DNA of 64,000 bases. Source: Gemmatimonadales bacterium. Lineage in GTDB: Bacteria > Gemmatimonadota > Gemmatimonadetes > Palauibacterales > Palauibacteraceae. Position numbers and translations under genes: made by a program. The notes below the pieces were generated by a model that did no database searches, was not told the DNA's origin, and was given only the letters and a program-made list of their open reading frames with translations. This document shows, one piece after another, positions 19,438 through 24,516 of this stretch. Positions within the stretch are counted from its first letter, which is position 1; each line of letters opens with the position of its first letter. Location: positions 62,001-126,000 of the forward strand of contig VXOJ01000011.1 in the NCBI GenBank assembly GCA_009840115.1. Direction: 5' to 3'.

Positions 19438-20688
19438 ATGTACGACACGCCGGAGCCGGGATCGGAATCGAAGGCCGTCCACCGTCGGGACCTCCTCCGC
19501 TGGCTTGCCGCCAGCCCCCTCCTTACCGCCTTCGCCGGGTGTGACCTGGGCCTCGTCGGGCACGCAATGGCACAGGAGGCGCCCGCGCGGTCGCTCGACA
19601 ACCTCGTCGGGTCGGCGCAGGAGGCGCTCGATGTCTTCGACCTGGAGAAGGTGGCCGCGCAGACGGTTCCGACGGCTCACTGGGGGTACATCAAGACGGG
19701 CGTCGACGGGGAGGGGACGCAGGCGAACAACCGGGCCTCGCTGGAGCGGATCTACATCCGCGCGCGCCGGCTGGTCGACGTCTCGAACCTCGACATGCGC
19801 GTCTCGATGTTCGGGCGCGAGTGGCCGACGCCGCTCATGATCGCGCCGGCGGGGAGCCAGGTCGCCTTCCACCGCGATGGTGAGCTTGCGACCGCACGAG
19901 CGGCCGCGGCCCGCACCCACCTGCAGACGCTCTCATCGGTGAGTTCCACGGGGGTCGAGGCGGTGAACGAGGCGCGGGGGGAGCCGGTCTGGTACCAGCT
20001 CTACGCGCCCCGCCACTGGAACGCGACGGTCGCGCTCGTGAACCGCGTCCGCGAAGCCGGCTGCCCCGTCATCGTGCTCACGGTCGATCTCCTCGGCGGA
20101 AGCAACCGGCTCACGCTGGAGCGCTACCGGCGGATCGACGACCGCAACTGCGAGAGCTGTCACCGGAGCGGCGGCCGCGCGGACCCCGTCAAACCGATGT
20201 ACGAGGGGCTGCCCCAGGGCCCGCCGGACAGCGGCGGCCCCACCATGACGTGGGACTACGTGCACCGCCTGCGCGACATCACGGACCAGCGGATCGTCGT
20301 GAAGGGACTCGTGACCCGCGAAGATGCGGAACTCGCGCTCGAGCACGGCGTGGACGGGATCTGGGTCTCGAACCACGGCGGCCGCGCGGAAGGCAGCGGC
20401 CGCGCGACGATCGACGCGCTTCCCGAGATCGCGGAGACGGTGGCCGGCGAGGTGCCGATCATCGTCGACGGAGGCTTCCGCCGCGGCACGGACATCTTCA
20501 AGGGCCTCGCGCGCGGCGCGACGGCGGTGGCGATCGGGCGTCCCTACCTGTGGGGCCTCGGGGCCTTCGGCCAGGCGGGCGTCGAGCGGGTGCTGGAAAT
20601 CCTGATCGAGGAGCTGCGGATCACGATGGGCGCCGTCGGGACGCCGTCACTCGCCGACATCGGCCCCCACTCCATCGGCGTCGACTGA
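19438..20688 (+). CDS. Tat-exported FMN-dependent alpha-hydroxy-acid oxidase/dehydrogenase with a CxxCH motif
   Basis: 416 residues from ATG 19438, with GGGAG upstream. The N-terminus has a twin-Arg motif (HRRDLLRWLA, R16/R17) and a lipobox ending at Cys35 (LLTAFAGC). The body is the FMN TIM barrel of the glycolate/lactate oxidase family: a PLMIAPAGSQVAFHRDGE strand, QLYAPRHWNATVALV, VIVLTVDLLGG, RIVVKGLVTREDAELALEHG, then the catalytic His in WVSNHGGRAEG and VPIIVDGGFRRGTDIFKGLA. Between barrel strands sits an insertion with CESCH (C238, C241, H242), a c-type heme signature absent from ordinary family members. It may pass electrons to a heme rather than to oxygen. The substrate is unknown. 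Confidence 0.88.
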   Translation: MYDTPEPGSESKAVHRRDLLRWLAASPLLTAFAGCDLGLVGHAMAQEAPARSLDNLVGSAQEALDVFDLEKVAAQTVPTAHWGYIKTGVDGEGTQANNRASLERIYIRARRLVDVSNLDMRVSMFGREWPTPLMIAPAGSQVAFHRDGELATARAAAARTHLQTLSSVSSTGVEAVNEARGEPVWYQLYAPRHWNATVALVNRVREAGCPVIVLTVDLLGGSNRLTLERYRRIDDRNCESCHRSGGRADPVKPMYEGLPQGPPDSGGPTMTWDYVHRLRDITDQRIVVKGLVTREDAELALEHGVDGIWVSNHGGRAEGSGRATIDALPEIAETVAGEVPIIVDGGFRRGTDIFKGLARGATAVAIGRPYLWGLGAFGQAGVERVLEILIEELRITMGAVGTPSLADIGPHSIGVD

Positions 20689-21438: not shown

Positions 21439-22713
21439 GTGAAACGTCGAACGCTGATCAAGACCGTGGGCGCCGCGGCGCTGGGCTCGAGCCTCGGCGC
21501 GTGCTCCCCCGCGTGGCGCCGTTTTCCGCCCGGCCCCACCGCCTCGAGCCTCCCCCTCCTCCGCGTCGCGCCGGACCGCGTCATCCGGACCTCCGTGGGT
21601 CTCAGGCCCTTCCGGCCCGCCGGGTTCCGCGTGGCCGCGGAGCGGCTGGACGAGAAGACCGTCATCCACAACTACGGCCACGGCGGCGCGGGGATCTCCC
21701 TTTCGTGGGGGACGGGACTGCTCGTGTCCGAACTGGCCGAACCTCATCCTTCGAGGCAAGCCGCCGTCATCGGGGCGGGCGCCGTCGGCCTCGCCACCGC
21801 GCGGCAGCTTCAGCGCCGCGGGTTCGACGTGACCATCCACGCGCGCGCCCTCCCGCCCGACACGACCTCGAACATGGCCTATGCCGGGTTCTCGCCGCTC
21901 TCCAACCTCGTGTCGGCGCCCGAACGGACCCCGGCCTTCGACACCCAGTTCGACCGGGCCGTCCGCGCCTCCTACGAGCAGATGCAACGGCTCGCGGGCG
22001 CCGGACGCGGCGTGTCGTGGATGACCACGTACACCTGGACGAACCGCCTCACGGGTCGGCGGGTGGAAGATCCCGGACTCGACGAGACCGAGAGCGGCCT
22101 CGACCCGGGCCTCGACGTGGGCCCCACCGTGCTGCAGCCGGGAGAACACCCCTTCCCCGGCACCTATGCCCTCCGCCGGCCGACCCTCCGCATCGAGCCG
22201 TCGATCTATCTGGACCGGCTGATGGAGGAGTTCCTCCTCTTCGGCGGACGCGTGCGGATCCGGGATTTCGCGACACCCCGCGACCTCATGTCGCTCGACG
22301 AACCGCTCATCGCCAACTGTACGGGTCTCGGCTCGCGGGCCCTGTTCGGCGACGAGACGATGACCCCCATCAAGGGCCAACTCACGTTTCTCGCCCCGCA
22401 GCCCGGCATCGACTACAGCCTCGAAGGCAGCGCACCGGGCGGCGGCCGCATCGGGATCCTGCCGCGTTCGGACGGGATCGCACTCGGACACGTGATGGAG
22501 CGCGGCGACTGGAGCCTCGAACCGATCGAGGAGGCGATCGCGACGCGGCTCGACCGCGCGGGCCGCCTCGTGGCGGCGATGGCGGACCACCCCTCCGGAC
22601 TCGGCGGGGTCGCCGCCGCCCCGCGGTTACCCGCGATGCGCGCCGCGCTCGAACACGACGCCGTCCCGGCGACTCCGCCCCCGGTCGAGAGCTTCTACGA
22701 CATTGAGTTCTAG
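21439..22713 (+). CDS. Tat-type lipoprotein FAD-dependent D-amino-acid oxidase homologue with permuted domain order
   Basis: 424 residues from GTG 21439. The leader KRRTLIKTVGAAALGSSLGA ends in a lipobox Cys22 and carries a twin-Arg-like motif. The signature usually found at the C-terminus of D-amino-acid oxidases, GLRPFRP (54-60) and VIHNYGHGGAGISLSWG (75-91), comes first. The FAD-binding Rossmann motif VIGAGAVGLATARQLQRRG, usually N-terminal, follows at 110-128. The middle elements (LIANCTGLGSRALFG, IKGQLTFLAPQ, GRIGILPRSDGIALGH) keep their normal order. All FAD and substrate motifs are thus present in a circularly permuted order. Expected reaction: D-amino acid to 2-oxo acid, ammonia and reduced acceptor, outside the cytoplasm. 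Its TAG stop shares CTAG with the convergent merR gene. Confidence 0.85.
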   Translation: MKRRTLIKTVGAAALGSSLGACSPAWRRFPPGPTASSLPLLRVAPDRVIRTSVGLRPFRPAGFRVAAERLDEKTVIHNYGHGGAGISLSWGTGLLVSELAEPHPSRQAAVIGAGAVGLATARQLQRRGFDVTIHARALPPDTTSNMAYAGFSPLSNLVSAPERTPAFDTQFDRAVRASYEQMQRLAGAGRGVSWMTTYTWTNRLTGRRVEDPGLDETESGLDPGLDVGPTVLQPGEHPFPGTYALRRPTLRIEPSIYLDRLMEEFLLFGGRVRIRDFATPRDLMSLDEPLIANCTGLGSRALFGDETMTPIKGQLTFLAPQPGIDYSLEGSAPGGGRIGILPRSDGIALGHVMERGDWSLEPIEEAIATRLDRAGRLVAAMADHPSGLGGVAAAPRLPAMRAALEHDAVPATPPPVESFYDIEF

Positions 22714-23381: not shown

Positions 23382-23416
23382 GCCGTTTCCGCCGTTCCAG
23401 TTCTGAGTGACGTATA

Positions 23417-23436
23417 CTGTCGTTTACAGACGACAG
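23417..23436. promoter_or_regulatory. Candidate MerR operator: inverted repeat in the divergent merR/ARPP-1 region
   Basis: CTGTCG (23417-23422) and CGACAG (23431-23436) are inverted around TTTACAGA. Related elements nearby are ACTGTC at 23416 and again at 23464, TGTCAG at 23446 with its complement CTGACA at 23485, and CTGT-CA-ACAG at 23465-23474. This density of TGTC/GACA elements within 80 bases suggests regulator binding. Confidence 0.55.
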
Positions 23437-23439
23437 CCG

Positions 23440-23468
23440 TTGACTTGTCAGAATCTCCCCGTTACTGT
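23440..23468 (+). promoter_or_regulatory. Candidate sigma-70-like promoter for the ARPP-1 gene
   Basis: TTGACT (23440-23445) and TACTGT (23463-23468) have the standard 17-base spacing and would start transcription about 35 bases before the ATG at 23509. The -10 box lies within the CTGTCAACAG element, so a bound regulator would overlap it. Confidence 0.5.
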
Positions 23469-23508
23469 CAACAGCGTATCAACACTGACAATATCAAGGA
23501 GGGGAGAC

Positions 23509-24516
23509 ATGAACCAGATCACGACCGCCATCGCCGGCCTCGAGGTCGGCGAACCGACCTTCCGCGGCGGCCTCACGGTGTTCCCCCTGCTTTCCCGGGA
23601 GACCTCGGACCTCGACTACCTGCTGCTGGGAGACGGGCTTCGCGAGGACCGCGTCGTCGTGCGCGAGGTATCCATGGGGGGCAGCGTCCCCGACCTCGAG
23701 GTGGAAAACCGGTCCGACCGTCCCCTGCTCATCGTGGACGGCGAGGAACTCGTCGGCGCCAAGCAGAACCGGGTCGCCAACCTCACGATGCTGCTTCCCG
23801 CCGGGAAGACGACGATCATCCCGGTCTCGTGCGTGGAACAGGGCCGCTGGTCGTACGACCGCCCCGGGTTCCAGGTGACGAACCGGATGCACTTCGCGAG
23901 CGGGCGCGCGGAGCGATACGCGAGCGTGCAGGAGTCGATGCGGAGCGAGGGGACGCGGCGCTCCGACCAGAGCCGGGTGTGGAGTTCGATCGACGACAAG
24001 GCCGCGGCGATGGAAGCCCCATCGGAGACGGGCGCGATGAGCGAGATCTTCGAGCGCCACGCGGCGGCGCTGGACGACTACGTCCGGGGAGTGGAGGCGG
24101 CTCCGGATCAACTCGGCGCCATCTTCGCGGTGGCGGGCGGCAACTACGGACTGGACCTCTTCGACCGTCACGCCACCCTCGCCGCGTTCCTCCCCAGGCT
24201 CGTGCGAAGCTACGGCGTCGACGCGCTGGAACGGCGCTCGGAGGGGGGCACGGCGGCGCCGGCCTCCGCGGCGCGGGACTTCCTCGACCGCTTGCGAGCG
24301 GGCTCCTTCGATCAGCACCCGGCGGTCGGCCTCGGGCGCGATGTGGGAATCGTCGCCGAACGCGCCATCGGAGGCGCGCTCGTCGCAGACGACACCATCG
24401 TGCACCTGACGGGGTTTTCCAACCCCCGGGCCGGCCGCGCCGAGCGCGCCGGAGAGCAGGTGTATGCGAACTACCACCAGAGGCGCGACGCCCTCCGCCG
24501 ACGGCACGCGAGCTAG
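23509..24516 (+). CDS. ARPP-1 domain protein (DUF6569-like)
   Basis: 335 residues from ATG 23509, with an excellent AAGGAGGGGAGAC ribosome binding site. No signal peptide or TM. The family features are LEVGEPTFRGGLTVFPLL near the start, VENRSDRPLLIVDGEELVGA, KQNRVANLTMLLPAGKTTII and PVSCVEQGRWSY, with a C-terminal IGGALVADDTIVHLTGF. This matches the ARG-and-Rhodanese-Phosphatase-superfamily-associated domain, whose biochemical role is not established. It faces a MerR gene across a repeat-rich promoter region, so it is probably induced by that regulator. Confidence 0.8.
   Translation: MNQITTAIAGLEVGEPTFRGGLTVFPLLSRETSDLDYLLLGDGLREDRVVVREVSMGGSVPDLEVENRSDRPLLIVDGEELVGAKQNRVANLTMLLPAGKTTIIPVSCVEQGRWSYDRPGFQVTNRMHFASGRAERYASVQESMRSEGTRRSDQSRVWSSIDDKAAAMEAPSETGAMSEIFERHAAALDDYVRGVEAAPDQLGAIFAVAGGNYGLDLFDRHATLAAFLPRLVRSYGVDALERRSEGGTAAPASAARDFLDRLRAGSFDQHPAVGLGRDVGIVAERAIGGALVADDTIVHLTGFSNPRAGRAERAGEQVYANYHQRRDALRRRHAS

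Follow-up and report, generated by a model that had tools for sequence, protein, structure and literature searches.

A DAAO-family protein with rotated segment order: evidence for a natural circular permutation in a bacterial flavoenzyme with a predicted Tat-lipoprotein signal

The locus and its product

The window analysed here is a 64,000-nucleotide stretch of DNA from a Gemmatimonadales bacterium. It encodes a protein of the D-amino-acid oxidase (DAAO) family, the gene for which is present once in the source genome and is flanked by an HhH-GPD glycosylase gene and a regulator-like gene, both on the minus strand. The gene and the parts of its product are as follows.

21439 to 22713, + strand: permuted DAAO-family gene, stop included, starting with GTG and encoding 424 aa in one open frame
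21439 to 21504, + strand: predicted Tat/lipoprotein signal, aa 1-22, with (K)RRTLIK, a hydrophobic stretch and the lipobox LGAC with Cys22
21571 to 21738, + strand: relocated C-terminal DAAO module, aa 45-100, matching profile positions 266-320, pLDDT 96-99
21739 to 21756, + strand: new join, aa 101-106 (EPHPSR), linking what was the C-terminal helix to what was the N-terminal beta1
21757 to 22593, + strand: FAD-binding Rossmann core and substrate domain, aa 107-385, normal internal order, canonical profile positions 6-264, Pfam DAO
22594 to 22710, + strand: C-terminal tail, aa 386-424, ending PPPVESFYDIEF, of low confidence (pLDDT below 50 at 412-424)

In the canonical segment order the Rossmann portion is N-terminal and the GxRPxR and YGHGG motifs are C-terminal. 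The window protein does not follow this order, being rotated by about 55 residues, and is therefore named here a permuted DAAO-family protein rather than a canonical DAAO. Its relocated module (residues 45-100) comprises the GLRPFRP strand, in which R56 corresponds to DAAO R283, two strands, the HNYGHGG FAD loop and the SWG helix. GLRPFRP (54-60) and VIHNYGHGG (75-83) are followed by the Rossmann motif VIGAGAVGLATARQL at 110-124. No second, C-terminal copy of NYGHGG was found in the 424-residue protein, the sole copy being at 78-83. The new join was placed between a predicted helix at 82-100 and a strand at 107-111, and this spacing is similar among relatives.

Pfam DAO (PF01266) covers only the body of the protein (residues 108-398; E 5.1e-25), and its score of 89.2 bits against a gathering cut-off of 27.9 satisfies membership of the DAO superfamily. 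The tail of about 39 residues (386-424) is absent from most relatives. It ends in a (V/A)P.(V/L)E(S/T/A)FF-like motif seen only in the clade of the window protein (window 22594-22710; loci L021, L022, L024, L026, L027, L030, L036, L039 and L044).

Swapped alignments and the rotation test

In a phmmer comparison with the PDB, human DASPO (6rkf) is matched out of order (E 3.1e-23), query residues 248-373 corresponding to chain residues 146-266 and query residues 49-100 to chain residues 280-334. When the PDB was searched with a family profile, the two blocks were swapped in every DAAO/DASPO chain displayed residue by residue, and the matched stretches jointly span the whole enzyme. As a control, a canonical-order DAAO from Gemmatimonadota matches the same PDB chains collinearly, in one stretch.

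The rotation test used a canonical profile of 323 positions made from 13 DAAO/DASPO sequences. The window protein aligns to this profile as two blocks, one at positions 6-264 (residues from about 107) and one at positions 266-320 (the N-terminal module). Once the extra tail is removed by a cut at residue 388 and the module is moved to the end, the two matches (112.6 and 57.3 bits) become a single match of 178.4 bits covering positions 10-320. Rotation likewise merges the two matches into one full-length match in 76 of 83 permuted proteins, the other 7 remaining unmerged under the same rule. The matches also stayed separate when the full core of the window protein was rotated with its C-terminal tail kept, most likely owing to the tail residues that this rotation leaves between the blocks. 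The swapped segments are complementary, without loss or duplication, and meet at profile positions 264/266. The break point corresponds to approximately residues 265-272 of pig DAAO, directly before the strand bearing Arg283.

Predicted structure

An AlphaFold2 model of the window protein, built with 70 relatives, reached a mean pLDDT of 86 and a pTM of 0.83. Values exceed 90 in nearly every ten-residue block of residues 41-200 and 231-380, and the relocated module lies at 96-99. The predicted elements run E48-58, E64-70, E73-79 and H82-100, then E107-111 and H115-126, which is the rotated DAAO order. A model of the homologue from Sphingopyxis panaciterrae shows an identical order of elements (pLDDT 90, pTM 0.87). 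The best Foldseek matches in the PDB for both models are DASPO and DAAO, mostly over some 270-300 aligned columns with TM (target) values of 0.6-0.7. Such a length would be expected of a sequential aligner that omits the permuted module.

Distribution and origin

A genome scan yielded at least 577 relatives, from which 80 loci were kept. According to their record titles these belong to Gemmatimonadota, Acidobacteriota, Gammaproteobacteria, Alphaproteobacteria, Bacteroidota and others. NYGHG precedes GxGxxG, with a gap of about 32-37 residues, in all 78 relatives whose motifs were extracted, two of which required a looser motif pattern. Among 298 sampled Gemmatimonadota genomes, the permuted form was found in 61 and a canonical-order DAAO in 6. 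These counts are rough, having been obtained with different queries and cut-offs (E up to 1e-40 for the permuted form, up to 1e-20 for the canonical one).

A tree computed from 88 re-rotated sequences has a single branch that sets all permuted proteins apart from the rest (SH-aLRT 99). The same split was recovered from the body columns only (SH-aLRT 100), a tree that is independent of the rotation because body columns cannot reflect it. As the branches between the permuted and canonical sets are long, a single origin is consistent with the data and the root remains unproven; that the permutation arose once is thus compatible with both trees without being established. A truncated permuted gene occurs at L017 (G046:C1:1966427-1969720), where the signal and relocated module are intact and unrelated sequence takes the place of the Rossmann body.

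Taken together, the swapped PDB alignments, the rotation test, the confident folds and the conservation in at least 577 loci support a natural circular permutation in the DAAO/DASPO branch of the DAO superfamily, albeit without a permutation-aware superposition. A sequence-only reading of this gene had placed GLRPFRP and VIHNYGHGG before the Rossmann motif, with the remaining motifs in order, and had proposed a circular permutation. The motif order held at the positions it gave, and the permutation is supported by the swapped alignments, the rotation, two folds and wide conservation. A second NYGHGG copy, a frameshift or an assembly join would have refuted it; each was looked for and none was met. 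The structure prediction it had suggested as a check gave confident folds in rotated order with DASPO and DAAO as top matches. The placement of the module in the FAD site is inferred. How widely the order occurs had also been raised, and with the relatives from the genome scan the finding is larger than first described.

The export signal

Two adjacent arginines occur near the N-terminus in all 78 extracted relatives, and in 65 of them a simple pattern also picks up a lipobox-like Cys. An alignment of 70 sequences shows R3 and R4 without exception and C22 in at least 90% of members. TatC is encoded in the source genome. The features of a Tat lipoprotein, namely twin Arg, a hydrophobic stretch, a lipobox Cys and Tat machinery, are thus all present, with export itself being predicted. 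Tat export suits a cofactor enzyme that needs to fold around FAD first.

Some members lack part or all of this signal. The permuted proteins encoded on rhizobial plasmids (L120 4926-5978; L122 4923-5984) have no export signal, and the plasmid-encoded protein of Kozakia baliensis has the RR pair and no lipobox. These divergent members indicate that permutation and export are associated and not strictly coupled. The rhizobial genes of L120 and L122 each lie in a three-gene set, between genes for an FAD-binding (BBE-type) oxidoreductase and a TPP enzyme.

Active site and known relatives

The DAAO hallmarks GxGxxG, GxRPxR with its carboxylate-binding Arg, and YGHGGxG are all found in the window protein. 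All 83 permuted proteins retain R56 (the equivalent of DAAO Arg283), the YGHGG loop and the three glycines of GxGxxG. The active-site Tyr (Y228 of mammalian DAAO) is missing from the window protein, which has Gly at this position. Across the 83 permuted proteins the equivalent residue is Tyr in 49, His in 23 and Gly in 5, the window protein included. According to a survey of bacterial DAAOs, strict conservation extends only to the FAD fingerprint and the ArgPro pair, and the Tyr varies (PMC9844085). With R56 and the FAD motifs invariant and the Tyr variable, the family assignment is firm and the substrate is inferred. Since the window protein has Gly at the Tyr228 position, its D-amino-acid oxidation, O2 use and H2O2 production are only inferred. 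The variation at this position within the permuted family (Tyr, His, Gly, Ser) suggests a change of substrate within the family.

The sequence-only reading had called the protein a D-amino-acid oxidase exported by Tat as a lipoprotein. The first part held as a family assignment, resting on the invariant R56, with enzymatic activity inferred only. The second is well supported by R3, R4, C22 and TatC, although export is still a prediction.

DAAO (PDB 1kif, 2du8, 1c0p, 7ct4) shares with the window protein its two domains, the GxGxxG FAD site, the GxRPxR substrate Arg and the YGHGGxG FAD loop, at about 20-25% identity in an alignment of the body. It differs from the window protein, which is rotated by about 55 residues, is a predicted Tat lipoprotein and carries Gly at the Tyr228 equivalent. 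DASPO (PDB 6rkf) is the best sequence and fold match, differing in that the order is permuted in the window protein. At DAAO positions 215 and 242, where human DASPO has Arg, the permuted family shows no conservation of this residue. Canonical bacterial DAAOs (from Actinomycetota, and L102-L107 in Gemmatimonadota) have GxRPxR, YGHGGxG and the same FAD and Arg residues, but their order is normal and no Tat signal or lipobox was seen in those examined.

Three other assignments were rejected. Glycine oxidase ThiO (TIGR02352) scored 53 bits against a curated cut-off of 250.8, and D-amino acid dehydrogenase DadA (NCBIfam) 29.8 against 383, both far below the threshold; what they have in common with the window protein is the DAO superfamily (PF01266). 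DASPO in the strict sense was rejected on its side-chain-carboxylate Arg residues, which in the window protein are Leu (DAAO position 215) and Met (242).

Gene neighbourhood

Inspection of the loci by eye, without clustering, revealed no conserved neighbourhood; only clade-level associations appeared, and no pathway could be named. In the window, an FMN-dependent dehydrogenase of the lactate/2-hydroxyacid type (PF01070) is encoded about 750 bp upstream of the permuted gene (19438-20688, + strand). Its N-terminus also has RR and a lipobox-like Cys (HRRDLLRWLAASPLLTAFAGC), making it a second apparently exported flavoenzyme. Downstream (23407-24516, + strand) lies a gene for an ARPP-1 domain protein (PF20208, a family of unknown function), the position of which is apparently conserved in the congeneric locus L021. 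On the Kozakia baliensis plasmid (L121 4920-6580), a cytochrome c gene begins 5 bp downstream of the permuted gene, and the surroundings encode beta-lactamase-family hydrolases, a second DAO enzyme and a TonB receptor.

Alternative explanations

The alternative that survives best keeps the permuted fold and changes the substrate, which would be something other than a free D-amino acid; candidates include imino acids, N-substituted amino acids, opines and D-residues of peptides. In its favour, the Tyr228 equivalent is Gly in the genus of the window protein and His in sister groups, other pocket positions also differ, and the Kozakia locus encodes beta-lactamase-family hydrolases and a second DAO-family enzyme. 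However, the carboxylate-binding Arg is invariant in the permuted family, the solved structures closest to the family are those of DAAO and DASPO, glycine oxidase and others matching far less well, and accepted bacterial DAAOs also lack a conserved Tyr (PMC9844085). On balance this alternative is less likely than not.

It is also possible that the same fold acts as a respiratory dehydrogenase, passing electrons to a periplasmic cytochrome c or to the quinone pool without producing H2O2. The cytochrome c gene adjoining the permuted gene in Kozakia baliensis fits this view, as do a cytochrome-c-domain protein encoded by the next gene at L054 and a protein with one CxxCH encoded two genes downstream in four gammaproteobacterial loci (L056, L067, L068 and L079). 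Periplasmic flavoenzymes are often dehydrogenases. Against this, no cytochrome gene adjoins the window gene and most relatives have none nearby. DAAO-branch enzymes of known function are O2-using oxidases. In the four gammaproteobacterial loci, moreover, a peroxiredoxin-like gene adjoins the permuted DAAO gene, an arrangement equally compatible with H2O2 production.

Several independent permutations or domain shuffles, in place of one event, are very unlikely. The long branches and the divergence of the deepest permuted lineages (the rhizobial plasmid group; Kozakia, Niveispirillum and Cyclobacterium) would allow them, but two trees, with support of 99 and 100, separate all permuted proteins from the others at a single branch, and the break point is common to them.

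That the permutation is an artefact of an assembly join, a frameshift or an unrelated N-terminal resemblance to the motifs is all but ruled out: the source is a draft assembly of 71 contigs, but 11 congeners at 91-95% identity have the same order and no internal stop, more distant relatives at 42-55% identity also carry the gene, the order recurs in isolate genomes, one complete chromosome (Sphingomonas sp. 7/4-4) and complete plasmids, and the two blocks are exactly complementary, meeting at profile positions 264/266.

A proposed explanation and its meaning

The explanation that best accounts for these observations is a DAAO/DASPO-branch flavoenzyme that was permuted once and is exported by Tat as a lipid-anchored periplasmic protein. 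This is likely as a whole, with FAD binding, export and catalysis being inferred. Sequence and structure prediction show the order, the break point, the complementarity of the segments, the confident fold, the position on one side of the tree and the wide distribution.

Under this explanation, the ancestral chain would have opened in the loop before the substrate-Arg strand (about residues 265-272 of pig DAAO), and the old C-terminal helix would have been joined through a linker of about six residues to the old first Rossmann strand. The chain is presumed to fold and bind FAD in the cytoplasm before Tat exports the folded protein, which would then be held by a lipid anchor at Cys22 and face the periplasm. 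There, R56 may bind the carboxylate group of the substrate, a small amino or imino acid and most probably a D-amino acid, as its alpha-hydride passes to the flavin. The reduced flavin would be re-oxidised by O2, yielding H2O2, or by a respiratory carrier. Through the permutation the new N-terminus would lie in a loop at the surface and not next to the FAD-binding beta1, an arrangement suited to an N-terminal anchor.

A bolder reading is that these proteins form a large, unrecognised permuted DAAO family of single origin that spread across phyla, in which permutation enabled Tat export and lipoprotein anchoring, and which oxidises D-amino acids in the periplasm, possibly feeding respiration instead of forming H2O2. 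On the present evidence this reading is about as likely as not.

DAAO is a textbook flavoenzyme with industrial use and is studied as a drug target. To our knowledge, no natural circular permutation of DAAO is known, and the survey of bacterial DAAOs does not mention one (PMC9844085). No permuted DAAO, permuted FAD oxidoreductase or Tat-lipoprotein DAAO was found described in the open-access literature searched, though a prior report in a subscription journal cannot be excluded. What is new is the permuted order within the DAAO family; the enzyme family itself is known, the distribution is wide and the function is inferred.

The permutation may explain why such genes are annotated merely as 'FAD-dependent oxidoreductase'. 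The permuted family would constitute a natural experiment on the tolerance of a Rossmann-fold flavoenzyme for a new terminus within the substrate domain, and it suggests that permutation is one way in which an enzyme can come to be anchored at the surface. A further question raised by the family is whether Acidobacteriota, Gemmatimonadota and sphingomonads oxidise D-amino acids outside the cytoplasm.
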